Below the pieces are notes generated by a model. It saw only the letters and a program-made list of their open reading frames with translations. It was not told where the DNA came from and ran no database searches. A program made the position numbers and the translations under genes. A stretch of DNA of 64,000 nucleotides from Indolivaga macrotermitis (GTDB taxonomy: Bacteria; Bacteroidota; Bacteroidia; Bacteroidales; Dysgonomonadaceae), in the NCBI RefSeq assembly GCF_900128985.1, contig NZ_FQUC01000003.1, forward strand, positions 186,001-250,000. The letters run 5' to 3'. Numbering within the stretch: the first letter of the stretch is position 1; each line of letters starts with the position of its first letter. Shown here in pieces: positions 22,098 through 40,357 of the stretch.

Positions 22098-22105
22098 TAC
22101 CTTTG
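22098..22105 (+). promoter_or_regulatory. -7 promoter box of the left cobalamin operon
   Basis: TACCTTTG fits TAnnTTTG and lies just before the riboswitch, putting transcription start at about 22112. The identical octamer stands in front of the second riboswitch. A TTTC at 22072-22075 is the best -33 candidate. Confidence 0.6.
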
Positions 22106-22109
22106 CCGG

Positions 22110-22287
22110 TGCTTAGGTGCTGTAAACAGACATTCGTCTTTTACATAAAAAGGGAATCCGGTTAGAATCCGGAACAGTGCCCGCTACTGTGAATTCCATA
22201 TAATTTTTGAGCATCACCATTGCCACTGTTCTTTATAGAATGGGAAGGCTGCTCAAAACGGAACAAGTCAGGAAACCTGCCAAGCTA
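22110..22287 (+). ncRNA. Cobalamin riboswitch 1 (adenosylcobalamin/B12 element)
   Basis: The B12 box AGTCAGGAAACCTGCC is at 22266-22281. The core GGGAATCCGG...GAATCCGGAACAGTGCCCGCTACTGTG lies at 22152-22191. GCCACTGTTCTTTATAGAAT, shared almost base for base with riboswitch 2, comes between them. It senses cobalamin and is expected to shut off the six downstream genes when B12 is ample. Downstream, TATTCC (22299-22304) can pair with GGAATA (22313-22318) just before the start codon; no T tract follows, so control may be on translation. No intrinsic terminator was found between box and gene. Confidence 0.93.
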
Positions 22288-22347
22288 CAAGTAATAAATA
22301 TTCCCGGGGTCAGGAATAGAGTTATTAATTATTATACTTCATTCTTA

Positions 22348-24543: not shown

Positions 24544-24549
24544 CCGGAT

Positions 24550-25671
24550 ATGAGATTATCATATTGGATATTGTCCGCAGTTATCATCTGTACTGTAATA
24601 TCTTGTACTTCCAACACTCATAAAAATAACGATAGTGTAGGTAAGTATGACTTAAAGTATGCCCGGGGATTCAGTGTAGAGATACACGAAGAGTATAAAC
24701 TAATAAAGGTACGCGACCCATGGGATACGATCCGGACTCTTTACCAATATGTATTGATCGACAGGGATAAGCCGGTTCCATCCGGTTTGCCTGAGGGAAC
24801 ATTAGTAAAAGTTCCTTTACAAACAGTAGTGGCATTTTCTACTATTCAATGCAGCATGTTGCAGGAAATAGGTGAACAAGGTCGTATAACAGGTGTGTGT
24901 CAGGCGCAATATATTGATATTCCCTACATCCGGAAACAATTAACCAGCGGGAAGATTATTGATCTGGGAAGTATGCATAAACCGGATATAGAAAAATTAA
25001 TAGACCTAACACCCGCTGCGCTTGTTGTTTCTGCAATGGAAACAGGCTTAGGGTATCTGGATAAATTAAATATTCCGGTCATTGCAACTACCGATTATAT
25101 GGAAGATACGGCACTTGGACGTGCTGAATGGATACGCTTTCATGCATTGTTCTATCAGAAAGAAGATTATGCCGATTCTCTTTTCAGCGAGACAGAACGC
25201 CGCTATAATGCAATAAAAGACATGGTAAAAGATATCCCTCAGAAACCCTCGGTATTTAATGACCTGAAGTATGGTAAAACATGGAGAATAGCAGGGGGCA
25301 AAAGTTATCTGGCTAATATGATTCGCGATGCAGGCGGCGACTATATTTGGAGTGATGACTCGACGACAGGTTATATAAGGTTGTCTGCTGAAGTTATACT
25401 TGATAAAGCCGAATCTGCTGATATCTGGCTACTTAAATACAACAGATCCGAAGACTTTACATATAACAGGCTGAAAGGAGAGGATAGAATATATTCCGAG
25501 TTCGATTCATTCAGGAAAAAGAATATTTGGGGGTGTAATACCGACCGGATACATTATTTTGAAGACCTGCCTATTCATCCTGACCGGATATTGAAAGATA
25601 TGGCTGCAATATTCCATCCATATTTATTCCCGGATACGCAGTTAAACTACTTTAAGCAACTAACCGAGTAA
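24550..25671 (+). CDS. btuF: ABC-transporter substrate-binding lipoprotein, BtuF/FecB-like (copy 1)
   Basis: Class III periplasmic binding protein that hands a metal-chelate or corrinoid to an inner-membrane ABC importer. 373 residues; lipoprotein signal with Cys19 (TVISC). Conserved family segments are KYARGFSVEIHEEYKLIKV, GSMHKPDIEKLIDLTPAALVV, LGRAEWIRFHALFY and KTWRIAGGKSYLANMIRDAGGDY. It is a clear paralogue of the protein at 34940-36076, which has the same blocks. No permease or ATPase accompanies it in this operon, so it probably shares the BtuC and BtuD encoded in the opposite operon. Family call firm; ligand inferred from the riboswitch. Confidence 0.87.
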   Translation: MRLSYWILSAVIICTVISCTSNTHKNNDSVGKYDLKYARGFSVEIHEEYKLIKVRDPWDTIRTLYQYVLIDRDKPVPSGLPEGTLVKVPLQTVVAFSTIQCSMLQEIGEQGRITGVCQAQYIDIPYIRKQLTSGKIIDLGSMHKPDIEKLIDLTPAALVVSAMETGLGYLDKLNIPVIATTDYMEDTALGRAEWIRFHALFYQKEDYADSLFSETERRYNAIKDMVKDIPQKPSVFNDLKYGKTWRIAGGKSYLANMIRDAGGDYIWSDDSTTGYIRLSAEVILDKAESADIWLLKYNRSEDFTYNRLKGEDRIYSEFDSFRKKNIWGCNTDRIHYFEDLPIHPDRILKDMAAIFHPYLFPDTQLNYFKQLTE

Positions 25672-25688
25672 CTGAAAAATAAGCTTTT

Positions 25689-26630
25689 ATGAAAAAAACA
25701 CTATTAAGCACCTTATTATTACTATTTGCAATCACTACAACTTTAGGTCATGGTGTAACTAATTATATGCACTCTGATTTTCTAGAAGGAATGCAGGAGG
25801 GTGATAAAGCTGCTATACTGATGATACATTTCGGGACAACTCACCACGACACCCGCGAGGTAACTATCGAAGCTTTAAACAATAGAGTGAAGCAGGAATT
25901 TCCTGATCTCGAATTCAGGGAAGCATACACTTCACGCATTGTTATTAAACGGCTTGCTGATAATGAAGGGATAAGGAAAAATAATCCATTAGAGGCATTA
26001 AAGCAGTTACATGCAGATGGATATACCCATGTACTGATTCAGTCATCCACTATTATAGATGGGGTTGAAATGGAATCTATCTGTAAAAATGTAGAAGAAG
26101 TACAATCCCTTTTTAAAGACATCCGTATAGGAAATCCTTTGTTGTATACTCCTCAGGATTACGAAGATGTAATTGAGGTATTAACACCCGGTTATGATAA
26201 CGACACAGCATATATATGGGTAGGGCATGGCACGTACGATGTGACCACCGCCCAATATGCAATGATCGACTATATGCTGAAAGCAAAAGGCCATACTAAC
26301 TGTTTCGTCGGTACTATCGAGGGTTATCCCGAATACGAAGATATGCTGTCTCAGCTGAAATCTTCGGGTTTGAAGAAAGTAGTGCTTATGCCCTTCATGT
26401 TTGTAGCCGGAGACCATGCTAAAAACGATATAGCCGAAGATTGGAAAGAAAGGCTCGAAAAAGAGGGGTATCACGTAGAAGTAAGTCTGCAGGGATTAGG
26501 TGAAAACCCTAATATACAGAATATCTATATCTCTCATTTGAAGTTTATCACCGGGCATCGTAAAATCGGTATTATGGAGAAAAAGTCTGTGTATGAAAAG
26601 ACAGGAGAGAAAATAAAAGGCAATCATTAA
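25689..26630 (+). CDS. cbiK: CbiK-type cobaltochelatase with signal peptide (copy 1)
   Basis: Class II chelatase that inserts cobalt into sirohydrochlorin. 313 residues. Metal-site candidates are H180 (WVGHGTYD), E211 (VGTIEGYP) and H243 (VAGDHAKND). Residues 1-20 are a classical signal peptide with no lipobox cysteine, so the full product should be periplasmic, as reported for Desulfovibrio CbiKP. Methionines at 27 and 35 lie just before the chelatase domain; a start there would give a cytoplasmic enzyme of usual CbiK length (about 280 residues). Because the downstream methyltransferases are cytoplasmic, the location matters for pathway logic. Third gene of the left operon. Confidence 0.88.
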   Translation: MKKTLLSTLLLLFAITTTLGHGVTNYMHSDFLEGMQEGDKAAILMIHFGTTHHDTREVTIEALNNRVKQEFPDLEFREAYTSRIVIKRLADNEGIRKNNPLEALKQLHADGYTHVLIQSSTIIDGVEMESICKNVEEVQSLFKDIRIGNPLLYTPQDYEDVIEVLTPGYDNDTAYIWVGHGTYDVTTAQYAMIDYMLKAKGHTNCFVGTIEGYPEYEDMLSQLKSSGLKKVVLMPFMFVAGDHAKNDIAEDWKERLEKEGYHVEVSLQGLGENPNIQNIYISHLKFITGHRKIGIMEKKSVYEKTGEKIKGNH

Positions 26631-26652
26631 AAAACTGAAATAACAATAATAC

Positions 26653-28062
26653 ATGTCAGAAGGGAAAATAATAGTGGCGGGCATCGGTCCCGGTTCCGAA
26701 GAAGATATTACTCCGGCTGTTTTGCAGACTGTGAAAATATCCGATGTCATAATAGGATATAAATACTACTTTCAGTTTGTAGAAGGTGTTATCGGTAAAG
26801 ATGTATTATGCATTGATACGGGTATGAAGAAAGAACGGGAACGGGCTGAGGAAGCTTTCCGCTATGCTGAAGAAGGTAAAACCGTTTGCGTGATAAGTTC
26901 GGGAGATGCCGGTATATACGGAATGGCTCCCCTTGTATACGAAATGAAAAAGGAGAAGCAAAGTAATATTGAAGTTGAAGTACTACCGGGAATCAGTGCT
27001 TTTCAAAAAGCGGCAGCTCTATTGGGGGCTCCCATTGGGCACGATTTCTGTATTATTTCCCTTTCCGATTTGATGACACCTTGGGACAGGATAGAAAAGC
27101 GGATTTCAGCAGCGGCTTCCGCCGACTTTGTAACCGCTATTTATAATCCTAAAAGCAACGGGCGGTATTGGCAACTGTATCGTTTGACCGAACTATTTCT
27201 GAAAGAGCGTTCTCCCGAAACACCTGTAGGATATGTGCGTCAGGCAGGGCGCGAGGAACAGGAAATAAAAGTAACGACTTTGGGAGAGTTTGATCCCGAA
27301 GAAATAGATATGTTCACCATCATTATTATTGGTAATTCACAATCCTATATTTTCGGCAAAGAGTATATAGTAACGCCCCGTGGATATTACAGGGAGACGA
27401 AAAACGAAGATATCGGTATCGGTCAGGATATTATGATACGTAGTTTCCGAACTATCGATAGTGAATTGAGAAACAGAAATATTCCATTAGATAAAAAATG
27501 GGCATTGCTGCATGCCATCCATACAACTGCCGATTTCGATATGGAGAATATCTTCTATGCAGATGAAAAAGCCGTAGAAAATCTCCATTACAGATTCGTT
27601 AAAGGAGAACTTAAAACCATTATCACCGATGTGACTATGGTAGCTTCGGGTATTCGCAAGGGCGCATTGGAACGGTTAGACATAGAAGTGAAATGTTACT
27701 TGCATGACGAACGTGTAGCCGAGTTGGCAAAGTCAAAAGGTATCACCCGCACTCAAGCCGGAATACGTTTAGCTGTGGATGAATATCCCGATGCCTTGTA
27801 TGTATTCGGAAATGCTCCTACGGCCTTGATGGAACTGTGCGAACTTATCCGTAAAGGAAAAGCGAAACCAAACGGAATTATCGCTGCTCCTGTCGGCTTT
27901 GTCAATGTGAAGGAGTCCAAGCACATGACAAAACCATTCTCCGGTATTCCTAAATTGATTATAGAAGGTAGGAAAGGCGGAAGTAATCTGGCTGCAACAT
28001 TAGTTAATGCCATTCTTACTTTCGACGATGCAGAACAATTAAAACCGGGCAGGGATGTATGA
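26653..28062 (+). CDS. CbiH-CbiC fusion: precorrin-3B C17-methyltransferase / precorrin-8X methylmutase
   Basis: Two corrin-ring enzymes in one chain of 469 residues. Residues 1-248 are CbiH/CobJ, which contracts the ring and methylates C17, with AGIGPGSEEDITP, SSGDAGIYGMA (SAM site) and a YNPKSNGR segment. Residues 255-465 are CbiC/CobH, which moves the methyl from C11 to C12, with LHAIHTTADFD (H290 probably catalytic) and FGNAPTALMEL and AAPVGFVNVKESK. The two steps are not consecutive, so the fusion does not simply channel one product. Left operon, 22 bases after cbiK1 and three bases before cbiE-cbiT. Same fusion order is known in Porphyromonas-type genomes, from memory. Confidence 0.95.
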   Translation: MSEGKIIVAGIGPGSEEDITPAVLQTVKISDVIIGYKYYFQFVEGVIGKDVLCIDTGMKKERERAEEAFRYAEEGKTVCVISSGDAGIYGMAPLVYEMKKEKQSNIEVEVLPGISAFQKAAALLGAPIGHDFCIISLSDLMTPWDRIEKRISAAASADFVTAIYNPKSNGRYWQLYRLTELFLKERSPETPVGYVRQAGREEQEIKVTTLGEFDPEEIDMFTIIIIGNSQSYIFGKEYIVTPRGYYRETKNEDIGIGQDIMIRSFRTIDSELRNRNIPLDKKWALLHAIHTTADFDMENIFYADEKAVENLHYRFVKGELKTIITDVTMVASGIRKGALERLDIEVKCYLHDERVAELAKSKGITRTQAGIRLAVDEYPDALYVFGNAPTALMELCELIRKGKAKPNGIIAAPVGFVNVKESKHMTKPFSGIPKLIIEGRKGGSNLAATLVNAILTFDDAEQLKPGRDV

Positions 28063-28065
28063 AGT

Positions 28066-29265
28066 ATGGGTATAAAGTTTTATGTAATAGGAATAGACGA
28101 TAATAAAGAGCAATATTTCGGGAAAGAAATTTCGGAGGTAATAGCATCCCATACTGTATTTTCGGGAGGAGCGCGGCATCGGGAGATAGTAAATCACCTA
28201 TTGCCCGAAAATAATCAATGGATAGAAATTACTGTCCCTTTGGATAAGGTTTTTTTCCAATACAATAGTTATAACGAGATTGTTGTTTTCGCCTCGGGCG
28301 ACCCTCTGTTTTTTGGTTTTGCCAACACTATACAACGTATTGTCCCCGGCGCTGAAATCATTTTGTTTCCATCTTTCAATTCTTTACAATTATTGGCTCA
28401 CCGTTTGCTGATGCCTTATCAGGATATGCACATTGTCTCTTTGACAGGACGCCCGTGGGATAAATTTGATGAAGCTATCATTTCAGGTTACGAAAAAATA
28501 GGGGTGTTGACTGATAATAAAGAACATACGCCTGCCAATATAGCAAAAAGAATGCTGCAATATGGCTATGATAATTATCAGATGGATATCGGCGAATTAT
28601 TAGGAAACAAAGAATACGAGAAAGTCTCTACTTTGAATTTGGAAGAAGTAATTGATAAGGGCTTTGCTTTTCCGAACAACCTTATATTACGAAAGACGCG
28701 TAACCGGTTCCGACCTTTCGGTATACACGAAAATGAGTTTAATCTATTGAATGGCAGGACAAAAATGATAACCAAAATGCCGGTACGTTTATTATCTCTT
28801 AGCCTTTTGGATTTGAGAGAAAAAAACGTCTTTTGGGATGTTGGCTTCTGCACAGGTTCGGTCTCGGTAGAAGCAAAAATTCAATTTCCCCATTTAAAAA
28901 TATATGCCTTTGAAAAAAGAAAAGAAGGTAAGATGCTAATGGAAAGTAATTCCCGAAAATTTGGTACTCCCGGTATACTAGCTATCGAAGGGGATTTCTC
29001 GGAAACCGATATTACAGATTTTCCGCAACCCGATGCTGTTTTTATTGGAGGGCATGGAGGTAAAATGAGTGAAATAGTGACTAAACTATCGGGTGTGTTG
29101 AATGATAAAGGTGTTATTGTATTTAATTCGGTCTCGGACGAAAGCCGGCATATGTTTCTAAATGCAATAAATGAGAACAATTTGTTTCTGGCTCAGAATA
29201 TATCTATCAAAGTCGATGATTTTAATACCATCGAGGTAATGAAAGCAACCAAAAAACATGAATAA
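28066..29265 (+). CDS. cobL: CbiE-CbiT (CobL) precorrin-6B C5,15-methyltransferase/decarboxylase
   Basis: Bifunctional enzyme of 399 residues that methylates C5 and C15 and removes the C12 acetate carboxyl. Residues 1-212 are the CbiE half, with FASGDPLFFGFA. Residues 215-399 are the CbiT half, a class I SAM methyltransferase with NVFWDVGFCTGSVSVEA (D258) and a PDAVFIGGHGG segment. The length and fusion are those of CobL. It begins three bases after the CbiH-CbiC stop, and its end overlaps the next gene by eight bases, so these are translationally coupled. Confidence 0.95.
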   Translation: MGIKFYVIGIDDNKEQYFGKEISEVIASHTVFSGGARHREIVNHLLPENNQWIEITVPLDKVFFQYNSYNEIVVFASGDPLFFGFANTIQRIVPGAEIILFPSFNSLQLLAHRLLMPYQDMHIVSLTGRPWDKFDEAIISGYEKIGVLTDNKEHTPANIAKRMLQYGYDNYQMDIGELLGNKEYEKVSTLNLEEVIDKGFAFPNNLILRKTRNRFRPFGIHENEFNLLNGRTKMITKMPVRLLSLSLLDLREKNVFWDVGFCTGSVSVEAKIQFPHLKIYAFEKRKEGKMLMESNSRKFGTPGILAIEGDFSETDITDFPQPDAVFIGGHGGKMSEIVTKLSGVLNDKGVIVFNSVSDESRHMFLNAINENNLFLAQNISIKVDDFNTIEVMKATKKHE

Positions 29266-31078
29266 ACGAGCAATAATATTAACATCGGAACTGGCGTATC
29301 CAATAGCTCTAACAATAGTGAAAGAGTTGTCTGATTCTTCTATATTCAGTAAATCAGGAATCGAAGGTACTACTCTTATAACATCGATAGGGGAATGTGT
29401 CAGCGAAATATTTAACCGGTATGAATCCATTATTTTTATTGGGGCAATGGGTATATGTGTGCGTAGTATAGCTCCGCATATCAAAGATAAATATTCCGAT
29501 CCGGCAGTTGTGAATATCGATAGTACAGGAAGATATGTGGTGTCGGTACTGTCGGGGCATGTCGGAGGGGCTAATGAGCTGGCAGAAAGTCTGGCCCGTA
29601 TTATCGCAGGAGAAGCTGTGATTACGACTCAAAGTGATAATACGAATCTCTGGGCTCTCGATACTATAGGTAAGAAATTCGGATGGGAAACAACTTCGAA
29701 CAGGACGAATTTCAACGAACCTCTGACATCCTTTGTAAATAAAAAAGCCACAGCTTTATTGCTGGATATTAAAGATGAAGGGATTCTATATATGGAGCGC
29801 ACAGCCCCGGAACATGTGAAAATCTTTTATAAGTACGAAGATATTGACTTATCCGGATTTGATCTACTAATAGCAGTTACTCCATATATATATCCGGATA
29901 TAGAAATACCGGTTATCTATTATCATCCTAAGGTTTTGCATCTGGGAGTCGGTTGTCGTAAAAATTGTAATCCGGAGGGGATCAGTAAGTATATCGGACG
30001 GATATTGTTTGAGAAAAACATAAGTATGTTATCGGTAAAAGATATTTCGACTATAGATTTAAAAAAAGAAGAACCTTTACTTTCTAAATTACAATCTTAT
30101 TTTGATGGGACACCGGTTCATATTTATACAGCAGATGACCTGAAAGACATTGAAGTAGCCAATCCGTCTCAAAAGGTGAAAGAAGTAACCTCGATACCGG
30201 GCGTTGCAGAATCGACAGCTGTAAAAAGTGCGGATTACGGAACTCTGGTTTTAGAAAAGCAAAAAGGTAAACTCAGCGAAGGTAATGACTTTACATTTGC
30301 TGTAGCAATAGCAAGAAATGCCGTAAGGCAAGGACATATCGAAATTGTAGGGGCAGGACCCGGTGATCCGGATCTTATTTCGGTAAAAGGGCGCCAATTC
30401 CTCGAAGCAGCAGATTTGATATTGTATGCAGGTAGCCTTGTTCCTATAGAATTAACATATTGTGCTAAAGAAGGCGCAACGGTACGAAGTTCGGCATCTA
30501 TGGATTTGGAGGAACAGTTTGCGATCATGAAGGAGTTTTATGATAAAGGAAAGCTTGTAGTACGCTTGCATACAGGTGATCCTTGTATTTACGGGGCAAT
30601 ACAGGAACAGATGGCCTTTTTCGACAAATACAATATGTCTTATCATATTACACCGGGTATATCATCTTTTCTGGCCGCAGCTGCTGCATTAGAGTCCCAG
30701 TTTACAATCCCGGAAAAAGTACAGACTATAATACTGACGAGAGGGGAGGGTAGAACTCCTATGCCGGAAAAAGAAAAATTACATCTTTTGGCCCGTTCGC
30801 AAAGCACAATGTGTATTTTCCTTAGTGCTACAGTTGTAGAACAAGTACAAGCTGAACTATTAGAACATTATCCACCTGAAACTCCTGTAGCAGCATGTTA
30901 TAAACTGACATGGAAGGACGAAAAGATATATAGGGGAGAGTTGAAGAATCTGGCTCGGATAGTGAAAGAGAATGGTCTGATACTAACTACAATGATTGTT
31001 GTGGGTGAAGCGATCGGTAACCGGGAAGGATTATCGAAACTCTATTCACATCAATTTAAGCATATGTTCCGTTCTTAG
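29258..31078 (+). CDS. CbiG-CbiF fusion: cobalt-precorrin-5A hydrolase / precorrin-4 C11-methyltransferase
   Basis: A 606-residue fusion. Residues 1-353 are CbiG, which opens the delta-lactone and releases acetaldehyde in the anaerobic pathway (IGAMGICVRSIAPHI, VLSGHVGGANELAE, LHLGVGCRKNC). Residues 359-606 are CbiF/CobM, which methylates C11 (VGAGPGDPDLISVKG, RLHTGDPCIYGA, SFLAAAAALE). CbiG acts right after CbiF, so the fusion joins neighbouring steps. Presence of CbiG marks the anaerobic, early-cobalt route. Last gene of the left operon; its stop is only three bases from the stop of the converging cbiJ-cbiD gene. Confidence 0.95.
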   Translation: MNKRAIILTSELAYPIALTIVKELSDSSIFSKSGIEGTTLITSIGECVSEIFNRYESIIFIGAMGICVRSIAPHIKDKYSDPAVVNIDSTGRYVVSVLSGHVGGANELAESLARIIAGEAVITTQSDNTNLWALDTIGKKFGWETTSNRTNFNEPLTSFVNKKATALLLDIKDEGILYMERTAPEHVKIFYKYEDIDLSGFDLLIAVTPYIYPDIEIPVIYYHPKVLHLGVGCRKNCNPEGISKYIGRILFEKNISMLSVKDISTIDLKKEEPLLSKLQSYFDGTPVHIYTADDLKDIEVANPSQKVKEVTSIPGVAESTAVKSADYGTLVLEKQKGKLSEGNDFTFAVAIARNAVRQGHIEIVGAGPGDPDLISVKGRQFLEAADLILYAGSLVPIELTYCAKEGATVRSSASMDLEEQFAIMKEFYDKGKLVVRLHTGDPCIYGAIQEQMAFFDKYNMSYHITPGISSFLAAAAALESQFTIPEKVQTIILTRGEGRTPMPEKEKLHLLARSQSTMCIFLSATVVEQVQAELLEHYPPETPVAACYKLTWKDEKIYRGELKNLARIVKENGLILTTMIVVGEAIGNREGLSKLYSHQFKHMFRS

Positions 31079-31081
31079 GCT

Positions 31082-32905
31082 CTATTGTCTTATATTACCC
31101 GATTCGTCGATCAATAATATTGCGAGAGTGCCATCAGGAAGTAAAGGATTACATACCTGATGGCACTTTCTTATTATTTCGGCAAAAAAAGTAGCCTCGT
31201 TTTCCTTTATTATATCCCATAGTTGCCTAGCCATAGTCATGTCTTGTATCGAGGCTATTGTTTGGTCAGAACAATAACAATCTTTAGCAATAGAAGATAG
31301 AAAGTCTTTATTCATAACGACTTTTTTACTGTGTGTATCAAGAAACCCTTCTGCAAGTTTCACAGCCTTACCAATCATGATTCCCATAGTTAGTTGCGGG
31401 AAGCCCAGGTCGGAAGCAATCTTTATTGTTTCACCTATAAAGTTTCCGTAATGAATAAAAGCCTGACTTGGTAAATCGGGATATAGCTGTTTTATAAATT
31501 TTTCGCTTTTAGCTCCTGAGTTAATGATAACGTGTTTGCATCCTAAAGCCTTTGTAACCTGCATTTCACGATGGATGGAAGCTATAAAGGCTTCCGACGA
31601 AAAAGGCTTTACTATGCCGGATGTCCCGATAATAGATATCCCTCCGGTTATACCTAGTTTAGGATTGAATGTTTTTAGGGCTATTAGTTCCCCGTCCGGA
31701 ACGGATATCGTTATATCAATTCCCGTTTTTAGGCTTTCATCCGGTAGCTTATACTGATAGTGCCGCATTACTTTAAATACCTCCTTTTTCATCATCATAC
31801 GTGGTGTCTTATTGATCGCAGGATCTCCGATTTTGAGACCTAGTCCCGGTAGGGTTACCATTCCTACTCCTTTTCCATGAAGAAAACGTACTCCTTTGTG
31901 CTTAAGGTTTAATTGTACGGTAGATATTATCTCGTGCCCGTTAGTTATATCAGGATCATCCCCGGCATCTTTTATCACAGAACAGCTTACTTCGGAACTA
32001 TTTAAAATTGTAGAGTGGATAGGTAGCTTTATCCATTCGCCATTGGGAAGAGTTATACTTGTTTCGGTTTGTATTTCCTGTGTTAATAGTGCTGTTAATG
32101 CAGCTTTAGTTGCTGCTGTAGCACACGTACCGGTTGTATACCCTGTTTTAAGCTCGAAAAAGTCAGGAGTAAGCTTTTCTATTTGTTTTCTCAGCCCGTT
32201 TTCGCCATAAACACTGATGAAATTTGGAGACAGAACAGGACGTCTGATCACAAGCATCGGAATGCCAAGTTTCCGGGCAGCTTTTACCTTCTCATTAAAA
32301 CCACCCGATTCTCCACTCTCTTTTGTTACAATTGCTTGAGGCTTTAGTTTCTCGAATACGGATATTTCTTCTTCTCCCTGTTGGTAATACAGGACTTTGT
32401 CCATTGGGAATCCTTCAGACAAGACAATAGACCGTGACTCATCACGGTCCAAAATTCTGAACCAGCAGGTATTATTTTTCCAGTAAGGTTTTAACTTAGA
32501 AATAGTATTTACTCCGGTCAAGGCCAGTAGTTTGTCTATATGGTTTTTCTTAAGATAATTAATGGCCTCATTATAGGAGTCAAACCAAAGTAAGTCCCTT
32601 TCCTGCTCTGGATAGTTACGCTCGTATCTGATTACCGGTATATTCATACGATTGGCCACAGTAGCAATATTCTGATGCAAGCTTTCAGCAAAAGGGTGGG
32701 CGGCATCAATGATCAACCGGATTTCTTTTTCGAGACAACAATCCATCATACTTTTCTCATCTAACCCTCCTGTAATGTGAATACCATGTACGGTATTTAT
32801 TTTCTGAGATTCGCTCTTAGTCGAGTAGTAAAAGGGTTTAGCTGCACCTTCGCAAACTGTGGCAACTATTCGTCCTTCTGTAGTACCTCCGAATATCAGT
32901 ATCAT
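31082..32905 (-). CDS. CbiJ-CbiD fusion: precorrin-6A reductase / cobalt-precorrin-5B C1-methyltransferase
   Basis: A 607-residue fusion. Residues 1-248 are CbiJ/CobK, the NADH-dependent reductase of cobalt-precorrin-6A (MILIFGGTTEGR, IIDAAHPFAESLH, ALTGVNTISKL). Residues 252-607 are CbiD, the C1-methyltransferase of the anaerobic pathway (LKTGYTTGTCATAATKAAL, GDDPDITNG, GISIIGTSGIV). CbiD makes the substrate of CbiJ, so the fused activities are consecutive. Last gene of the right operon, overlapping btuD by four bases. With the left-operon enzymes and CbiL it completes the path to cobyrinic acid. Confidence 0.95.
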   Translation of the reverse strand: MILIFGGTTEGRIVATVCEGAAKPFYYSTKSESQKINTVHGIHITGGLDEKSMMDCCLEKEIRLIIDAAHPFAESLHQNIATVANRMNIPVIRYERNYPEQERDLLWFDSYNEAINYLKKNHIDKLLALTGVNTISKLKPYWKNNTCWFRILDRDESRSIVLSEGFPMDKVLYYQQGEEEISVFEKLKPQAIVTKESGESGGFNEKVKAARKLGIPMLVIRRPVLSPNFISVYGENGLRKQIEKLTPDFFELKTGYTTGTCATAATKAALTALLTQEIQTETSITLPNGEWIKLPIHSTILNSSEVSCSVIKDAGDDPDITNGHEIISTVQLNLKHKGVRFLHGKGVGMVTLPGLGLKIGDPAINKTPRMMMKKEVFKVMRHYQYKLPDESLKTGIDITISVPDGELIALKTFNPKLGITGGISIIGTSGIVKPFSSEAFIASIHREMQVTKALGCKHVIINSGAKSEKFIKQLYPDLPSQAFIHYGNFIGETIKIASDLGFPQLTMGIMIGKAVKLAEGFLDTHSKKVVMNKDFLSSIAKDCYCSDQTIASIQDMTMARQLWDIIKENEATFFAEIIRKCHQVCNPLLPDGTLAILLIDESGNIRQ

Positions 32906-33903
32906 ATGATAATATAATTTAATAGTTCTTCAATACTGGAAATAAGTATGGGCTTCTGTTCCGGTTGATATAATACAATTTGGTTATCTTGAATATCGAT
33001 TGACAAACCAGAGTCAATATCTCCTGAAGCCAAAATACCATTTCTTAAAAGAGCTTTTTGTATCATAGCATATTTTTGTCCGCAACCGGATACCTTTATC
33101 TTCCTGTTAAAATCGTTTTCAACACGGAATAATCCTGTATTTTGGTCAAATACTATTCCTTTCCGGGCAAAGAAATTACTTAAATTTCCATTTAAGGATA
33201 AATCTTCGGGTGTGCCAATCTGGATTCCGTGTTCAGTGTCCATCAGCCATATCTTATCTGCTATTTGCAGCGCTAGTTCCAGATCGTGGGTCGATAGAAA
33301 GATTGTCTTGTTCGTTTTTCGAGATAATTGATGCAACAATTGCATTATTTCGACCTTACTCGGAAAGTCGAGAAAGGCGGTCGGTTCATCCAGAAGAATG
33401 ATCGGAGTGTCTTGAGCCAGAGCTTTGGCAATCATAACTTTTTGCCTTTCCCCGTCACTTAATGTATCGACCATTCGTGGAGAAAGGTCTTTTATTTTGA
33501 CCTGATCAATGGCTTCTTCAATATGTCTTTTGTCATCCGGTGTCAGTTTTCCCCAGAATCCGGTATACGGACTTCGCCCTAAGCCTATTAATTCGTAAGA
33601 GGTCATGTTTTTTATATCAAACTTCTCTGTCAGTACAACACTGACTAAAGTTGCCAATTCTTTTTCCGAATAATTCTTTATTCTCTTATTATAAATAAAA
33701 ATATCGCCTACTAGTTGAGGTTGGAAACCAGTTAAAGTTCTCAGTAAGGTCGATTTGCCAATGCCATTGGAACCAAGCAGGCATGTAAGTTCTCCGCTGT
33801 ATATTGTGGATATAATGCTTTCGGCAACGATTCTGGTATTCTTTTTAGAACGGTATCCGATCGATAGGTCTTTGATCTCTATTGTTTTTTCTTTTTTATA
33901 CAT
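32902..33903 (-). CDS. btuD: ABC-transporter ATPase, BtuD/FecE-like, with C-terminal extension
   Basis: ATP-binding subunit of a cobalamin/siderophore-type importer, about 333 residues. Walker A is GSNGIGKST, the signature is LSDGERQK, and Walker B is PIILLDEPTAFLD. The start at 33903 (MYKKEKTIEIKDL) is chosen because the ABC domain begins there, five bases after the permease stop; the frame is open to ATGs at 33921 and 33963. After the usual roughly 250-residue domain there is an extra segment of about 80 residues (with VSGCGQKYAMIQKALLRNGI) of unknown role. Right operon, next to its permease; it is the only ATPase for both binding proteins in the window. Confidence 0.92.
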   Translation of the reverse strand: MYKKEKTIEIKDLSIGYRSKKNTRIVAESIISTIYSGELTCLLGSNGIGKSTLLRTLTGFQPQLVGDIFIYNKRIKNYSEKELATLVSVVLTEKFDIKNMTSYELIGLGRSPYTGFWGKLTPDDKRHIEEAIDQVKIKDLSPRMVDTLSDGERQKVMIAKALAQDTPIILLDEPTAFLDFPSKVEIMQLLHQLSRKTNKTIFLSTHDLELALQIADKIWLMDTEHGIQIGTPEDLSLNGNLSNFFARKGIVFDQNTGLFRVENDFNRKIKVSGCGQKYAMIQKALLRNGILASGDIDSGLSIDIQDNQIVLYQPEQKPILISSIEELLNYIII

Positions 33904-33907
33904 AGAT

Positions 33908-34939
33908 TTAGCCGATTTCATTCTTTCGTTTGCCAAATAATACAGAGATAACAATAGGTGCACCTATCAAAGCTGTAACCGAATTTATAGGGAGAGCACC
34001 TTCGAATCCCGGCATTCGTGCCACCAGATTGCAGAACAAGGCTAAAGAGGCCCCGGTTAAGGTAACAGCCGGCATAAGTATCCGATGATCGGACGACACA
34101 AATATTGTACGGCATAAATGAGGTACAGCCAGACCCAGAAAAACGATAGGGCCACAGTAGGCTGTGATAATTGCGGTAATAACACACGAACAAATTATAA
34201 CATACAGCCGTGCCCGTCCGACATTCAAACCCAGATTGCGGGCATAGCCTTCACCCAGTAACATCAGATTGAGTGTTTTTATTAAGAAGAACGATAGAGG
34301 AATCAATATAGCCATAATACAAACAAAAGTATAAACCTGATTGCCCGATACCTTTGCAAAACTGCCCAGTCCCCATATTACATACGCCCTGACATCTTCA
34401 TCGTTACTAAAGAATTTTAATACACCGATAATGGCTGTTGCAATATAACCTATCATAACGCCAATAATGAGTAGTATGACATTTCCTTTCACATATCGGG
34501 ATATTGTTATAATAATTGACATCACTGCCATAGATCCGGCTATTGCGGCTACAGATATGGCTATTTCTCCGAATAGTCCCATTTTGATAAGGGCAGTTCC
34601 GGCAATATTTCCCGACAATAAAATTATAAAGGCAACACCTAAGCTCGCTCCCGAACTGATACCTAATTCGGAAGGCCCTGCTAATGGATTCCGGAATAGA
34701 GTTTGCATTTGTAATCCACTGATAGATAATCCCGAACCGGCAATGAGCGCCGTTAAAGTTTGTGGGAAACGGGATTTCCAGATTATATTTTCCCATATAT
34801 CCGGCTCTTTCTTCGTGCCTAGAAGAATATTCCAGACAGAACCGACAGGAATAGAAATACTCCCCAATACCAGATTAAGTATAAAAAAGAGCACTATAGA
34901 AATAAAAATAAGAATAAAAGCAATAGCAGGACGTCTCAT
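33908..34939 (-). CDS. btuC: ABC-transporter permease, BtuC/FecCD family
   Basis: Inner-membrane channel of the importer, 343 residues, about nine to ten hydrophobic helices. Family motifs include LSISGLQMQTLFRNPLAGP near residue 55-75, FLGLAVPHLCR, and GALPINSVTALIGAPI near the C terminus. It begins one base after the stop of btuF2 and is followed at once by the ATPase gene, giving a complete btuF-btuC-btuD unit in the right operon. Confidence 0.95.
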   Translation of the reverse strand: MRRPAIAFILIFISIVLFFILNLVLGSISIPVGSVWNILLGTKKEPDIWENIIWKSRFPQTLTALIAGSGLSISGLQMQTLFRNPLAGPSELGISSGASLGVAFIILLSGNIAGTALIKMGLFGEIAISVAAIAGSMAVMSIIITISRYVKGNVILLIIGVMIGYIATAIIGVLKFFSNDEDVRAYVIWGLGSFAKVSGNQVYTFVCIMAILIPLSFFLIKTLNLMLLGEGYARNLGLNVGRARLYVIICSCVITAIITAYCGPIVFLGLAVPHLCRTIFVSSDHRILMPAVTLTGASLALFCNLVARMPGFEGALPINSVTALIGAPIVISVLFGKRKNEIG

Positions 34940-36076
34940 TTATTTAAGTAATTCGTAATAAACAGTTTTATGATCCGGAAGTAATTCCGGATGGAATATT
35001 TTAATCAGGTCAGCTAATACAATCTCGGGTTCTACAGGTGTATTCTCGTAAAATGGTTTTTCTCGTAAATTGCAATAGATCAACCGTTTTTCTTTGAATG
35101 CATCAAAGTCTGCATAGCGGGCATCACTCTGTTTCAGAGCATCGTAAGTGAAGCTTCCGTTATAACTGTTTACCATACGCCAGTAATCGGCCTTTGCTCC
35201 CTGAGAATAGACTGTTTCAAAATCTACGTAAAACCCTCCCGATTCATTGTCATTCTGCATAAAGTAATCAGCTCCGGCATCCCTGAACAGCTGGGCTAGG
35301 TAGCTTTTGCCTCCTACTACATACCAGTTACCCGAATGTAGTTCACCACTCAAGACCTTAGGGTGCTGGGAAACAGCCGTAGCTAGTTTTTTAAGTTCAT
35401 TATACCGATTTTCTATTTCTTTAAATTGATTGTTTGCCTGTTCCTCAATACCCAGAAGCATAGCTGTAAATTTGATCCATTCTGCCTGTCCCAGAGGTGA
35501 GCTCTCTTTATAACCGAGAAAACTTACCAAAGGAATATCCAAATTACGAATGGCATCATATCCTCCTTTTTTGAATGGAGATACTAATATAATATCGGGA
35601 TTGAGAGCTATTACAATCTCACTGTCAAACTCGCCTTCTATGCCTATTTTACTAGTTTTACCTTCCTTTAGTTGCTTATTTATCTGTTCGTTGAACAGAA
35701 ACCGTGTACTGGTTATTCCTACAACTTTATTCAGGGCATTTAGTTTTATGAAGTTGGAGAGTTGCAAAGTAGTCATGCATATTGCACTTCGTACAGGAAC
35801 CTCTATAATCTGATAATCCGCAGGGATACCTTCTTTATCAGCTCCCCTGTTTAAAAAGGCATATTTATAGCTTATATTACTTTCTCCGGATGGGTCGGTT
35901 ACATTGACCAACTTGTAGTTCCCGTAATCATCTATAGTAAATCCTTTGGCATACTTAATCTCTATAGAACTTGTGTTTTTGGGATGTTCTTTATTTGCAG
36001 TTTCCGATTTTTTGTTTTGATTGCAACTAAGAAATAAGATTGCCGGAATAATAATGATATATAGTATATTCTTCAT
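34940..36076 (-). CDS. btuF: ABC-transporter substrate-binding lipoprotein, BtuF/FecB-like (copy 2)
   Basis: 378 residues; lipoprotein signal with Cys18 (LFLSCNQ). Blocks KYAKGFTIDDYGNYKLVNV, TSTRFLFNEQINKQLKEGK, LNPDIILVSPF, SPLGQAEWIKFTAMLLG and GGKSYLAQLFRDAGADY match the first copy at 24550-25671, so the two are paralogues. It directly precedes the permease and ATPase genes. Position in an iht-like gene order suggests the role of IhtC. Whether it carries cobalamin, a precursor or a metal-tetrapyrrole cannot be told from sequence. Confidence 0.88.
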   Translation of the reverse strand: MKNILYIIIIPAILFLSCNQNKKSETANKEHPKNTSSIEIKYAKGFTIDDYGNYKLVNVTDPSGESNISYKYAFLNRGADKEGIPADYQIIEVPVRSAICMTTLQLSNFIKLNALNKVVGITSTRFLFNEQINKQLKEGKTSKIGIEGEFDSEIVIALNPDIILVSPFKKGGYDAIRNLDIPLVSFLGYKESSPLGQAEWIKFTAMLLGIEEQANNQFKEIENRYNELKKLATAVSQHPKVLSGELHSGNWYVVGGKSYLAQLFRDAGADYFMQNDNESGGFYVDFETVYSQGAKADYWRMVNSYNGSFTYDALKQSDARYADFDAFKEKRLIYCNLREKPFYENTPVEPEIVLADLIKIFHPELLPDHKTVYYELLK

Positions 36077-36084
36077 GTAATTAT

Positions 36085-36789
36085 TTATTTACATATAATA
36101 AATAGAGAAAAGTAGGGGAATTTACGTTCAATAATATTTTGTTTATGAGAACTGTAAAATTCTTTATCCTTAATACCGACATTTTCGAAATAATGAAATG
36201 TTACATACTGCATAGAGGATATTACTTTTTTGATAGCCTCCTCTGATTGAGATGGTTTCATTATCACAATAGAACTGCCGTACAGTATTCTTTCTTCCAG
36301 ATCTTTTTGTGTAATAACTCCGGGAATAATATATAACTCTTCTTCCTGCTTTACTGTATGTATATTGGCTAGTGCACCACAGGCTATGAATGCGGGTACC
36401 CCGGCAATTCTTTTTGTAGGTATATTGTTGACCGAAAGATTATCACATATATAGTGAGTTGAGGAATAAAAGCCGGCATCACCTTCTGCTGCAACTGCAA
36501 TTCTGCTCCCGTTTTTATATCGTTTTTCTATCTTGGTAGATATCTTTTTATAAGATATGATCGCTTCGGAGCGATTTTTATCCATAGGTACACTAAATAG
36601 AGATATTCTGGATTCTTCGAGGCCTAGTTCCAAAAGAATATCCTTGCTCCGCGAAGAGACTTTTCCAGAAGGGGTGAGTGTAGACGGACAGAATATAATA
36701 TCAGCCTGTTGTAAAAAATTCAGCCCCTTTAAAGTAATTAATTCCGGATCTCCCGGACCAAGGGATACGAACATAACAGAGTTTTCCAT
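36085..36789 (-). CDS. cbiL: CbiL (CobI) precorrin-2 / cobalt-factor II C20-methyltransferase
   Basis: SAM-dependent methyltransferase of 234 residues, the first methylation after cobalt insertion. Family motifs are FVSLGPGDPELITLKGL (8-24), VAAEGDAGFYSS, and IAGVPAFIACGALA. It is the only corrin methyltransferase here that is not fused to another activity. It lies between cbiK2 (93 bases upstream) and btuF2 (eight bases downstream), inside an otherwise transport-like gene set. Confidence 0.93.
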   Translation of the reverse strand: MENSVMFVSLGPGDPELITLKGLNFLQQADIIFCPSTLTPSGKVSSRSKDILLELGLEESRISLFSVPMDKNRSEAIISYKKISTKIEKRYKNGSRIAVAAEGDAGFYSSTHYICDNLSVNNIPTKRIAGVPAFIACGALANIHTVKQEEELYIIPGVITQKDLEERILYGSSIVIMKPSQSEEAIKKVISSMQYVTFHYFENVGIKDKEFYSSHKQNIIERKFPYFSLFIICK

Positions 36790-36882
36790 CTGTAAATTTG
36801 AATAATATATATTTTAAAAGTATTAGAAAGAGTAACCGTTCAGTTTTCTCTTTCTAATACGTGAGTTAAATGGTTCTCTGGC

Positions 36883-37968
36883 TTATTCCCCCAGATGTTC
36901 ATTCCATGATTCGGCTTTTAACACAGCCTCTTTCATGTGGTTAATCCAGATTTTACGTATAGCCTCATGATCAGCTAATCCTATAACATTAAAGCTATCA
37001 GCGTCAGTATTTGTTCCATCATTGCTGATCGTAAATCCTAGTTTACCTAATTTCAGTTTCCAACTGTATTCAGCTTCCCAGTCGTCTTCATCGGGATTAA
37101 TGCTTTCAGTTGTTTGTCCATCTTCCAGACCGCCTAAAAGGTCGTTTTGTGCATGGTCTCCTGCTATCGACATCAATGGAGCAAGGCTAACGGTAATCTC
37201 TTTATAATTGTCTTTAGTAATACCTTTTCGTGTAGCAAAAGCTTTGATCTCATCGCGTACGTGAGAGAACATCTTATCACCCCAGTCTACGGTTCCAACA
37301 AATATGTTTTTCTCGCCGCTTAGTTCTTGTAATGTAGATTCCAACTGGTCATATCTTTCGTTTGCGTGGGTGTATTCTGTATCGGGATTACCGTGTCCCA
37401 TCAAAGCAACCACTTCCCCATTATCCAGACGGGGCTTGTAATAAGCATAGAGAATCTTGGCTATGGATTGTACATCTTCTTCGGTTTCCAGCAAGCAGGC
37501 ACTTTTAGCCACTTTAATATCCGGAAACGGAACCATGAAGTTTTTCTTTACATCGGTATTCATGAGGCTTAAATATTCCTCTCCCGGAATAATGTGTAAT
37601 GATTGTACATATACATTCTTATATCCGGCATTGCCGATAGCTGTAAGCCATAAGTCGGGTTGAGCATAAGCTATTCCTATCTGGGCATATACGCGTGATA
37701 CAATAGTGCGTGATGTAAAGGACATATAAATGTCGGTGTTAGGATAAGCCGCCTGATAGTCGGCTATAATCTTGTCATAAGTAGCTTGTGGTTGTTCGTA
37801 AGTACTTCCGAAAGAGCACAAAAGTAAGGCAGTGTCATTTTTTTTCTCTATAACAACCGCACTTCTGGTATTAGTGTCATCTTTGTTGTCGTCATCCGAA
37901 CATGCAGAAAAAAATCCGGCGGAAAGAATCACCGAAACGGTTAACAGGTTTTTAAAGAACTTTTTCAT
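36883..37968 (-). CDS. CbiK-like chelatase, lipoprotein with surface-export-like tail (copy 2)
   Basis: A 361-residue chelatase-fold protein. The lipobox FFSAC places Cys23 at the mature N terminus, followed by SDDDNKDD; serine then acidic residues after the cysteine is the kind of signal that sends Bacteroidetes lipoproteins to the cell surface. Metal-site candidates H192 (MGHGN) and H272 (IAGDHAQND) are kept; the glutamate of copy 1 (VGTIEG) is replaced (VGTVDW, D228). There is an acidic insertion at about 280-300. It lies 27 bases after the receptor gene. P. gingivalis IhtB, a surface haem-binding protein, is also CbiK-like and lies in the same gene order, so this may bind or demetallate tetrapyrroles and not make cobalamin. 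Confidence 0.85.
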   Translation of the reverse strand: MKKFFKNLLTVSVILSAGFFSACSDDDNKDDTNTRSAVVIEKKNDTALLLCSFGSTYEQPQATYDKIIADYQAAYPNTDIYMSFTSRTIVSRVYAQIGIAYAQPDLWLTAIGNAGYKNVYVQSLHIIPGEEYLSLMNTDVKKNFMVPFPDIKVAKSACLLETEEDVQSIAKILYAYYKPRLDNGEVVALMGHGNPDTEYTHANERYDQLESTLQELSGEKNIFVGTVDWGDKMFSHVRDEIKAFATRKGITKDNYKEITVSLAPLMSIAGDHAQNDLLGGLEDGQTTESINPDEDDWEAEYSWKLKLGKLGFTISNDGTNTDADSFNVIGLADHEAIRKIWINHMKEAVLKAESWNEHLGE

Positions 37969-37995: not shown

Positions 37996-40038
37996 TTATT
38001 GGTTTTGATTCTGAAATTTTAAGATAAACGATGTGTAGATATTCCTTCCGGGCGATGTGGTACCCCTGTTATGACCGAAAGGTGTACGGTCTATATAATT
38101 GAAGAGATTATCTATTCCTACATTCATATCTAACTTCCATTTTTTTGTGTTAAGAAAGGAATGTGATGTGTTAAGTCTCCATAGTTGGTATCCTTCGGCA
38201 TTTCCATCCGTTGTATAGTAGCGCTCTGATTGATACCTGCCGTTGAGATTGATTCCCAGTTTGTATTCTTTCCATGATTTGAACCACGAAAGCCTGATAT
38301 TCGCATTGTGGCGCGAAGTCCCGTTTATATATACGTATTTCATATAATCGGCCGAGGTTTCGTCGTCCGTACGCTGCCCTTTAGCATCCAGATAACTATA
38401 TCCTCCACTGATCTTTATGTTCTTGGGTAATTCAGCATCGAAAGTGAAGTCTATCCCGTATGTTCGTCCTTTTGCAAGGTTTACGTACTTCATAGTTTCT
38501 TCGACCAACTGTAGCTTATCTTCGTAAGAAGTTTCAACAGTCTGAAGAGAGATCATATTCCTGATATTATTGTGATAACCCGTTATACTGGCTTTGAACC
38601 GTGGCCGGTGATATTCGACATTTAATGCGTAGTAGTCCGATTTTTGTGCTTTTAAATCGATATTTCCGTAATAGGCTTTGTAACTGCTCATTATTGTTGC
38701 ATAATAATGATAGTAAAGTTCTTTTATGGTAGGTGCCTTGAATCCATTGGAGTAGGTTCCTCTCAATCTGAAGTTATCCAGTTTATACATCGCCGAGATC
38801 TTCGGTGTAAATGTTTGTCCAAATTCTTTATGCTGTCCGAATCGTATTCCGGCTGTAACGTTCAGCTTCTCGGTTATATTCCATTCGTCCTGAGCATATG
38901 CAGATATAGAATAAGCTGTGGCTCTGTCCCCTTCTAAACGATAGGGCGACACCAGCTTATCGTGGATGTATTCTACCCCTGTATTTAATATATTTTGTTC
39001 ATTTAAATAGAATACTCCTTTAAGGTTGCTCAATATTCTCTGTTGAGAAGTTTGTAAAATCCGGTCTCCTTCATAATATACAATCCGGTTGCCGTTTTCA
39101 TCAAAGTAGTCGGTGTATTCACGGCTCGTATAGTCATAGAAATAATCGTATCTGTCATATGATACATCAAAAGAAAGGTAGTTCTTGCCGTGTAATGTAT
39201 ATTTTGCTCCGATACCGTATGATTGGTTCCTGTAATAAAAATCGTTCAACCGCCATTGAGGTTCGCCTGTGGGTCTGTAAATCCATTTTTCGTAATAAGA
39301 AGCATTTGCATTCAGCAAAAGTTCTTTAGTTGCCCGGTAGGATAAATCTTCCGAGATAGAATAATTTGTAGAACGGTTAACCGTTTTTGTAACACTGTTG
39401 GTGTATAGTTTTCCTCTGTACCATTCTTCAGTTGTGTTTCTCCAGCCATCAGTATGGTTTAAAGTAAAAGAAGTGTTGGAGGATAGCCGTCCATGATTCA
39501 GGCTTATGGTGTTACTTTGATTAATATCGGCATATTCGCCTATCCGTGAAATATTGGATATACTGAGTTTATCTTTGTCCTTTTTCGATATGAAATTTAT
39601 AACCCCGCCTATTGCATCCGAACCGTAAAGAGACGAGACTGCTCCTTTAACGATCTCTATACGCTCTATATTATTCATGTTAATCCGGCTCAAATCGTTT
39701 TGTCCTCCGACATCGCCATTTATTCTTTTACCATCTACGAGTATTAGGATATAGTCATTCTTTAATCCATTGAGTTGAATATTACTCCCCATATCACTAC
39801 GGCTGAAAGTAAAAGAAGAAGACAGTCCTCCCAGAATATCCTCGATATCCCGTCCCGCATATTCTTTCAGGGCTGTTCCTGATATAACTTCAGTCTGAAT
39901 AGGAGCATCTTTAGTATAGTGCTCGGTTCCGGTACCGGTTACTACTACCTCATTTAAAGAAACTGACTTTATTTCCTGCTGGGCTTTTGTATGTATACTG
40001 CACAAAAAAGTTACTGCCAAAAGCATGTAATACCTCAT
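37996..40038 (-). CDS. btuB: TonB-dependent outer-membrane receptor, BtuB/IhtA-like (copy 2)
   Basis: Predicted importer of a corrinoid or tetrapyrrole, 680 residues. Signal peptide (1-19, ending TKAQ), TonB box in LNEVVVTGTGT (28-38), plug with SLYGSDAIGGVINFIS, and a 22-strand-type barrel ending in an aromatic-rich strand (SFILKFQ). It lacks the N-terminal regulatory domain of copy 1 but shares the plug segment NIQLNGL...GDVGG. First gene of the right operon, behind riboswitch 2. A leader of about 110 bases with a 16-base direct repeat separates riboswitch and start codon. Confidence 0.9.
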   Translation of the reverse strand: MRYYMLLAVTFLCSIHTKAQQEIKSVSLNEVVVTGTGTEHYTKDAPIQTEVISGTALKEYAGRDIEDILGGLSSSFTFSRSDMGSNIQLNGLKNDYILILVDGKRINGDVGGQNDLSRINMNNIERIEIVKGAVSSLYGSDAIGGVINFISKKDKDKLSISNISRIGEYADINQSNTISLNHGRLSSNTSFTLNHTDGWRNTTEEWYRGKLYTNSVTKTVNRSTNYSISEDLSYRATKELLLNANASYYEKWIYRPTGEPQWRLNDFYYRNQSYGIGAKYTLHGKNYLSFDVSYDRYDYFYDYTSREYTDYFDENGNRIVYYEGDRILQTSQQRILSNLKGVFYLNEQNILNTGVEYIHDKLVSPYRLEGDRATAYSISAYAQDEWNITEKLNVTAGIRFGQHKEFGQTFTPKISAMYKLDNFRLRGTYSNGFKAPTIKELYYHYYATIMSSYKAYYGNIDLKAQKSDYYALNVEYHRPRFKASITGYHNNIRNMISLQTVETSYEDKLQLVEETMKYVNLAKGRTYGIDFTFDAELPKNIKISGGYSYLDAKGQRTDDETSADYMKYVYINGTSRHNANIRLSWFKSWKEYKLGINLNGRYQSERYYTTDGNAEGYQLWRLNTSHSFLNTKKWKLDMNVGIDNLFNYIDRTPFGHNRGTTSPGRNIYTSFILKFQNQNQ

Positions 40039-40151: not shown

Positions 40152-40340
40152 TTGGTGTTTATTCGTCGAATCTGGCAGGTCTTCTGGCTATCCTCTGGTT
40201 AAAAGCCTTCCCATTCTAAAAGAACAGTGGCATAGAATATTTAACCAACATAACGAGGAATTACAGCTGCAGGTACAGCCCCGGATTCTCACCGGGTTCC
40301 CTTTTCATTACAATATCATGAGTATGATTTGTAACACCAA
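40152..40340 (-). ncRNA. Cobalamin riboswitch 2 (adenosylcobalamin/B12 element)
   Basis: On the minus strand the B12 box AGCCAGAAGACCTGCC occupies 40189-40174, an almost perfect match to consensus. The core GGGAACCCGG...GAATCCGGGGCTGTACCTGCAGCTG lies at 40305-40264. A perfect closing stem is formed by 40333-40340 and 40152-40159 (TTGGTGTT with AACACCAA). GCCACTGTTCTTTTAGAAT is shared with riboswitch 1. It should repress the seven-gene right operon when B12 is ample. Confidence 0.95.
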
Positions 40341-40349
40341 AATCTGGGT

Positions 40350-40357
40350 CAAAGGTA
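40350..40357 (-). promoter_or_regulatory. -7 promoter box of the right cobalamin operon
   Basis: On the minus strand TACCTTTG, the same octamer as in front of riboswitch 1, ends ten bases before the aptamer's closing stem. Transcription start would be at about 40343. No exact TTTG -33 element is seen. Confidence 0.6.

Follow-up and report, generated by a model that had tools for sequence, protein, structure and literature searches.

The question raised by this locus is what a CbiK-family chelatase would do on the outside of a cell. Within the window, by which we mean the whole 64,000-nucleotide stretch of Indolivaga macrotermitis DNA that was analysed, an open reading frame designated cbiK2 (36883-37968, minus strand, ATG start) encodes a 361-aa protein that matches the Pfam CbiK family (PF06180) with 147.6 bits against a curated cut-off of 26.2 (E 5.5e-43). 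An earlier note on this DNA had described the product as a surface-type lipoprotein next to a TonB receptor, in a B12-controlled, iht-like uptake operon interleaved with cbiL and cbiJ-cbiD, and had suggested that it may capture corrinoids or tetrapyrroles, or exchange their metal, in a role analogous to BtuG. The family assignment, the lipobox and the adjoining receptor were confirmed, and the interpretation was supported in part; it overlooked a second riboswitch locus with another exported CbiK, CbiK1, and also that neither HemB nor a methyltransferase was found in the genome. The missing HemB and uroporphyrinogen-III methyltransferase (SUMT) are the key to reading the locus.

The N-terminus of CbiK2 (MKKFFKNLLTVSVILSAGFFSAC-SDDDNKDD) carries a lipobox, with the lipoprotein cysteine at Cys23, and then acidic residues. 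Lauber et al. 2016 (PMC5080379) describe the surface lipoproteins of B. fragilis as having S at +2 and D at +3/+4. The C-S-D-D-D of CbiK2 fits this rule, whereas the two binding lipoproteins of the window, SBP_A and SBP_B, do not. At least two acidic residues were present at positions +2 to +6 in 33 of 39 lipobox-bearing CbiK2 rows of the comparison versus 1 of 13 SBP_B lipoproteins, where lipoboxes were called by script and five CbiK2 rows and six SBP_B rows had none under it. CbiK2 is thus, by prediction, a surface-exposed lipoprotein, as had been proposed.

CbiK2 has H192, D228 and H272 at the metal-ligand positions, and its AlphaFold model has pLDDT 86 and pTM 0.84. H192 and H272 align with His145 and His207, the catalytic residues of Salmonella CbiK (PMC7689651), and were invariant in 34 of 34 aligned relatives. 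A QSLH histidine was also considered as a catalytic residue and was ruled out, as it is not invariant in the CbiK2 clade. The third metal ligand of the family, which we take to be Glu (175 in Salmonella CbiK, 184 in CbiKP), is Asp228 in CbiK2 and Asp in at least 90% of the aligned relatives, which is a conservative change within the CbiK family. CbiK2 scored 92 bits with the SiroCoChCbiK equivalog model NF047852, which requires 400. The best solved relative by sequence was FetB (8.9e-41), and the nearest solved folds were FetB (Z 31.8, 40% identity over 261 residues), CbiKP (Z 31.2, tied) and Salmonella CbiK (Z 27.7). A CbiK fold was assigned, and BtuG was absent among the 50 fold matches listed.

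On the minus strand, cbiK2 belongs to a gene set (locus B) ordered TonB_B, cbiK2, cbiL, SBP_B, permease, ATPase and cbiJ-cbiD. The receptor gene, TonB_B (37996-40038, minus strand), with plug and beta-barrel Pfam matches over cut-off, lies upstream of cbiK2 with a gap of 27 nt; its solved relatives, all remote, are the Cir, FepA/PirA-type and BtuB receptors. The receptor-chelatase unit stands behind a cobalamin riboswitch (40157-40356, minus strand; RF00174, 105.1 bits against a gathering score of 31.5, E 2.8e-25), in agreement with the B12 control that had been claimed. Downstream, all on the minus strand, lie the gene for CbiL (36085-36789), the C20-methyltransferase of the step after cobalt insertion (TP_methylase over cut-off; TIGR01467 142.7 bits, under its cut-off of 163.25); SBP_B (34940-36076), a Peripla_BP_2 substrate-binding lipoprotein with the mature end C-NQNKK and without an acidic export signal; a FecCD/BtuC-type permease (33908-34939; PF01032, 244 bits), whose top NCBIfam model is BtuC at 198 bits, under the cut-off of 334; an ABC ATPase with a C-terminal extension (32902-33963; PF00005), matched by FecE and corrinoid-ATPase models under their cut-offs; and a CbiJ-CbiD fusion (31082-32905; PF02571 and PF01888). 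The interleaving of uptake and cbi genes was as described. The extension of the ATPase (32902-33165, about 85 residues) had no Pfam match.

An attenuator- or terminator-like hairpin with a U-run lies between cbiK2 and cbiL (36820-36860, minus strand), with an A+T-rich 13-bp outer stem followed by UUUU; the region folds at -18.6 kcal/mol (z -4.6 versus shuffles). At this strong hairpin, which is possibly an attenuator or a processing site, cbiK2 and cbiL may be uncoupled, so that the same-strand gene set need not be a single uninterrupted operon or one transcript. Promoter and terminator scans gave results at chance level and were set aside.

A second riboswitch locus (locus A, 22098-31078, plus strand) converges tail to tail on locus B (31078/31082), with 3 bases between the frames. 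It begins with a cobalamin riboswitch (22098-22298; RF00174, 99.1 bits), followed by TonB_A (22348-24543), a TonB-dependent receptor with a carboxypeptidase-regulatory-like domain (plug, barrel and CarbopepD_reg_2 over cut-off), for which the open reading frame was listed from a TTG at 22207 and the start inferred at the ATG at 22348. SBP_A (24550-25671), a substrate-binding lipoprotein with the mature end C-TSNTH (Peripla_BP_2, 70.3 bits), and CbiK1 (25689-26630; PF06180, 278.4 bits) come next, and then fusions of CbiH-CbiC (26653-28062), CbiE-CbiT (28066-29265) and CbiG-CbiF (29258-31078), each identified by profile matches and all on the plus strand. CbiK1 has a type-I-like signal peptide and is predicted to be periplasmic; it keeps the His-Glu-His ligands (H180, E211, H243), and its best solved relative is Salmonella CbiK (1.7e-46). 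The window accordingly encodes corrin-ring steps (chelatase, CbiL, H, F, G, D, J, E, T and C), with two exported chelatases.

The genome (4.66 Mb, 99.99% complete) was then searched by profile. HemB (porphobilinogen synthase, ALAD) had no match. The five TP-methylase matches genome-wide were CbiF, CbiH, CbiL, CbiE and RsmI, with RsmI over its own cut-off, and none of the five reached the cut-off for SUMT. With neither HemB nor SUMT found, the cell should lack the means to produce sirohydrochlorin, so an imported ring is necessary if the corrin pathway works. In having corrin-ring genes but no HemB match, the genome fits the pattern of the tetrapyrrole precursor salvagers. PF06180 detected two CbiK in the genome, both signal-bearing; a profile search for a separate CbiX matched CbiK1 only, and a cytosolic second chelatase, sought with PF06180 and PF01903, was not found. 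No cytosolic enzyme for cobalt insertion, of the CbiK/CbiX class, is thus apparent in the genome.

On balance, we consider it somewhat probable that CbiK2, anchored at the surface, acts as a cobaltochelatase in a route to B12 that salvages a tetrapyrrole precursor. The riboswitches, export signals, catalytic histidines, gene unit, early-pathway gap and lack of a signal-less CbiK or separate CbiX are read directly from the sequence, whereas surface exposure, substrate, metal, direction of reaction and handover to TonB_B are the parts that we infer. At low B12, the riboswitches would allow production of the receptors, chelatases and importer. Sirohydrochlorin, scavenged as such or formed by oxidation of precorrin-2, would bind CbiK2 beside TonB_B, and CbiK2 would insert Co(II) at the surface, outside the cytoplasm; the export signals and the adjoining receptor are what place it there. 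Cobalt-sirohydrochlorin would then cross the outer membrane via TonB_B, possibly also via TonB_A, and periplasmic CbiK1 might metallate any ring missed by CbiK2. The cobalt-containing ring would pass from the binding lipoproteins to the FecCD-type ABC importer and enter the pathway at CbiL. A cobaltochelatase is favoured by the riboswitch, the kept catalytic residues, the cbi company and signal-less sister proteins that lie beside cobalt uptake genes.

The distribution of these genes was assessed in 246 genomes of the order, of which 17 had CbiK, 43 HemB and 21 CbiD. Eleven of the 17 CbiK-bearing genomes were without HemB, and every CbiK with a readable start in these was signal-bearing; a partial second CbiK match in one genome (G201) has an unreadable start and stands outside this count. 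In the same 11 genomes, the CbiX profile matched nothing beyond CbiK itself. The six HemB+ genomes with CbiK were split, with signal-less CbiK in G070, G112 and G179 and exported CbiK in G024, G067 and G235. A separate CbiX was present in G067 and none was found in G024 or G235. In HemB+ genomes such as these, salvage need not be the purpose of an exported CbiK. One further genome (G084) had CbiD, and HemB, CbiK and CbiX were not found in it at the thresholds used.

Named relatives were taken as the best 80 of 586 in a scan of genome contigs, and 35 CbiK2-type loci were counted from these 80; the signal-less L048 and L049 were not included, nor was L081, which a contig end truncates. A script recognised a lipobox in 34 of the 35, and the start of L075 is ambiguous. 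Among these best 80 of 586, a TonB_B-type receptor lay directly upstream of CbiK2 in 35/35 loci and a cobalamin riboswitch preceded the unit in all 34 loci checked (L075 was left out); in L060, L068 and L071 the riboswitch precedes a TonB_A that itself precedes TonB_B. Further cbi genes occurred in 23 of these 35 loci from the best 80 and ABC parts in 22; neither was seen in 10, some of which are on short contigs. HemB was not found in 34 of the 35 genomes (L080 is the exception), calls that for these named genomes, many of them MAGs, carry no completeness figure. At one locus (L024:1486-3641, minus strand), two CbiK2-type genes are in tandem, one a lipoprotein with GDDD and the other with a plainer signal, which may be another route to a pair with one member at the surface and one in the periplasm. 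SUMT was kept, and HemB not found, in the L046 and L047 genomes (P. somerae, which is G199, and P. levii) and in the L087 genome, and HemB-less G126 had a SUMT-like match of 160 bits, under cut-off. SUMT without HemB might be an intermediate state, with possible entry at uroporphyrinogen III.

In a rival reading, CbiK2 is a FetB/IhtB-like chelatase for haem or porphyrin, which would take out or exchange the metal of haem on the cell surface and so gain iron or porphyrin. The likeness to IhtB in the earlier note was borne out, as FetB (= IhtB) is the closest solved relative by sequence and ties with CbiKP by fold, and a review (PMC13402209) credits FetB with forming Mn-protoporphyrin on the surface of P. 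gingivalis. However, in the tree (109 rows, a quick tree with SH-aLRT support only and no bootstrap), the window CbiK2 falls in a 44-row clade (SH-aLRT 100), and FetB (9b86) branches outside this clade, in a group of 50 rows (SH-aLRT 99), with two G235 lipoproteins and one Puteibacter protein as neighbours, so that CbiK2 is not an IhtB ortholog. The B12 riboswitch in the window and in 34/34 loci checked, together with the cbi genes in 23/35 loci, also speaks against haem. The position that we take to be the haem ligand of CbiKP (96) is Leu in CbiK2. Disruption of a B. fragilis cbiK, of unspecified CbiK type, is mentioned as being without effect on haem-iron use (unpublished data, PMC6460266). 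Riboswitches, tree position and neighbouring cbi genes were the grounds for setting aside the haem or iht reading as first choice, and we regard it as unlikely. The suggestion that iht-like systems are wider than haem uptake gained support from the riboswitches of the exported CbiK2 loci (34/34 among the best 80 of 586) and from the FetB-side Puteibacter relative. The gene for that exported CbiK (L078:9653-10867) comes immediately after a cobalamin riboswitch, and the genome is HemB+.

Three signal-less proteins (L023, L048 and L049) stand at the base of the 44-row clade, all from HemB+ and SUMT+ genomes; CbiK2 otherwise showed no grouping with cytoplasmic CbiK without a surface location. In two of the three, both Porphyromonas-type, CbiK is followed immediately by CbiM, with CbiN, a cobalt-ion importer (L023:1441-3418 and L048:2615-4560); the third, from P. 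crevioricanis, had no CbiM adjoining. No upstream TonB receptor was found in the three loci and no cobalamin riboswitch either, L048 and L023 being short. That two of three signal-less sisters sit beside cobalt uptake is a biosynthetic setting, which argues against CbiK2 being a BtuG-like capture protein that binds external cobamides or cobinamide for TonB_B and performs no catalysis. Such a protein would suit the predicted surface lipoprotein, the adjoining TonB receptor, the B12 control and the BtuC-like permease, but the two catalytic histidines are invariant in all 34 aligned relatives, and CbiK substrates are flat, uncontracted rings, unlike B12 with its axial ligands. We consider passive capture improbable. 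Since the histidines are kept, CbiK2 is better explained as a chelatase of corrin synthesis than as a passive, BtuG-like binder of corrinoids.

CbiK1 belongs to a separate clade (SH-aLRT 100) of nine rows, none of which comes from a genome where HemB was detected. That one genome holds exported chelatases from two clades, with Asp as ligand in CbiK2 versus Glu in CbiK1, could point to a division of labour in which CbiK2 takes the iron out of siroheme at the surface, and CbiK1, in the periplasm, afterwards puts in cobalt. G105, G126 and G208, however, each have a single CbiK, of the CbiK1 clade, and reverse chelation by the CbiK family is not established by the present evidence; we judge this arrangement quite unlikely.

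Export and HemB status were both known for 92 of the 109 rows, which are related by descent and not independent: 52 were exported/HemB-, 24 exported/HemB+, 16 signal-less/HemB+ and none signal-less/HemB-. The corresponding counts within the CbiK2 clade were 38, 1, 3 and 0. Phylogenetically independent contrasts numbered four overall, three in Bacteroidota and one in the CbiK2 clade, with none opposed and none significant, too few for a phylogenetic sign test to serve as support. A two-way rule, by which HemB- means exported and HemB+ means cytosolic, is ruled out by the 24 exported versus 16 signal-less HemB+ rows. Ten of those 24 are from Bacteroidota (L080; G024; G067; G235 twice; L078, L082, L084, L085 and L098). 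The one-way rule stands: HemB-less rows carry an exported CbiK (52 versus 0 signal-less). Two of the 52 are outside Bacteroidota, a Synergistaceae MAG (L111) and a Clostridia MAG (L122), each with a lipobox CbiK and with permease and ATPase matches nearby.

CbiM was present in 5/5 CbiX loci (4/5 of the CbiX read as signal-less) and next to one signal-less CbiK from Lachnospiraceae; the exported-CbiK loci examined yielded no CbiM. We read this pattern as suggesting that where the enzyme is inside, the ring, and mostly the cobalt too, would be supplied inside, and that where the ring cannot be made the enzyme would be outside, in Bacteroidales beside a receptor. A cobalt-getting device, in which a tetrapyrrole of the cell or its neighbours is loaded by exported CbiK as a cobalt carrier in place of a cobalt-ion importer, would suit the missing CbiM, the cbiK-bearing delta-proteobacteria reported to lack known cobalt transporters, the single B12 element over cbiK-cbiL and btuCDF in Desulfovibrio (PMC545781) and the exported CbiK of HemB+ genomes, but is very improbable here, as HemB-less cells cannot make the carrier and another cobalt transporter, CbtX, is predicted beside cbiK in the same source. 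Since CbtX is predicted beside delta-proteobacterial cbiK, a missing CbiM is no proof against cobalt-ion import.

The surface cobaltochelatase reading of CbiK2 suggests that a gut-type bacterium that seems unable to make the ring starts B12 synthesis outside the cell, from a scavenged precursor. More tentatively, and with a little less than an even chance in our estimation, HemB-less Bacteroidales in general may have moved cobalt insertion outside. The chelatase would be held against a TonB receptor at the surface and would work on a precursor that neighbours release, so that B12 synthesis is shared out over the community and cobalt enters only within the ring. If true, the proposal would account for the retention, by HemB-less Bacteroidales of gut, rumen and mouth, of a corrin pathway that they are unable to feed, and would name the point of entry into it. 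An early tetrapyrrole would also join the list of metabolites that members of gut communities share. It would also make testable the Porphyromonas 'enigma' raised in 2000, and would offer a B12-side reading of FetB/IhtB-type proteins, which are treated as haem or porphyrin factors in the literature consulted.

Among known systems, Salmonella CbiK (1qgo) shares the two catalytic histidines and the fold with CbiK2 and differs in its Glu ligand and in being cytosolic. In BtuG/BtuB of Bacteroides, as is predicted for CbiK2-TonB_B, a lipoprotein at the surface partners a TonB receptor and B12 exerts control, but BtuG belongs to a different fold family and only binds, without chelatase activity. CbiKP of Desulfovibrio vulgaris (2xvx), a periplasmic cobaltochelatase, is likewise an exported CbiK of similar fold (Z 31.2), yet it is periplasmic rather than a surface lipoprotein and falls in a separate tree group. 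A CbiKP-related locus (L105) has permease, ATPase and CbiL matches behind CbiK, like the window, but no TonB receptor match, and its genome is HemB+. Desulfovibrio cbiK-cbiL and btuCDF under a B12 element, as described in PMC545781, provide a precedent for the B12-controlled arrangement. FetB/IhtB of P. gingivalis, encoded in ihtABCDE, known here by its component list (PMC10913741), combines a CbiK-fold lipoprotein, a TonB receptor and an ABC importer as the CbiK2 unit does, and, from the Mn-protoporphyrin that the review attributes to it (PMC13402209), is a precedent for a working surface chelatase; in contrast, it lies outside the CbiK2 clade, and CbiK2 has a B12 riboswitch, cbi genes and Asp for the Glu ligand. 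Tetrapyrrole precursor salvagers are a named class, mostly Firmicutes (PMC6461909), in which P. gingivalis is cited as lacking the steps to precorrin-2, its corrin genes being the 'enigma' (Roper 2000, as cited in PMC6461909). In the open-licence PMC literature, as far as it was covered, no published proposal tying an exported CbiK and a receptor to precursor salvage was found. The window genome resembles that class in having a corrin pathway without the early steps, and whereas no uptake machinery is proposed for the class in the parts of PMC6461909 consulted, here an exported chelatase and a receptor would be tied to the salvage.
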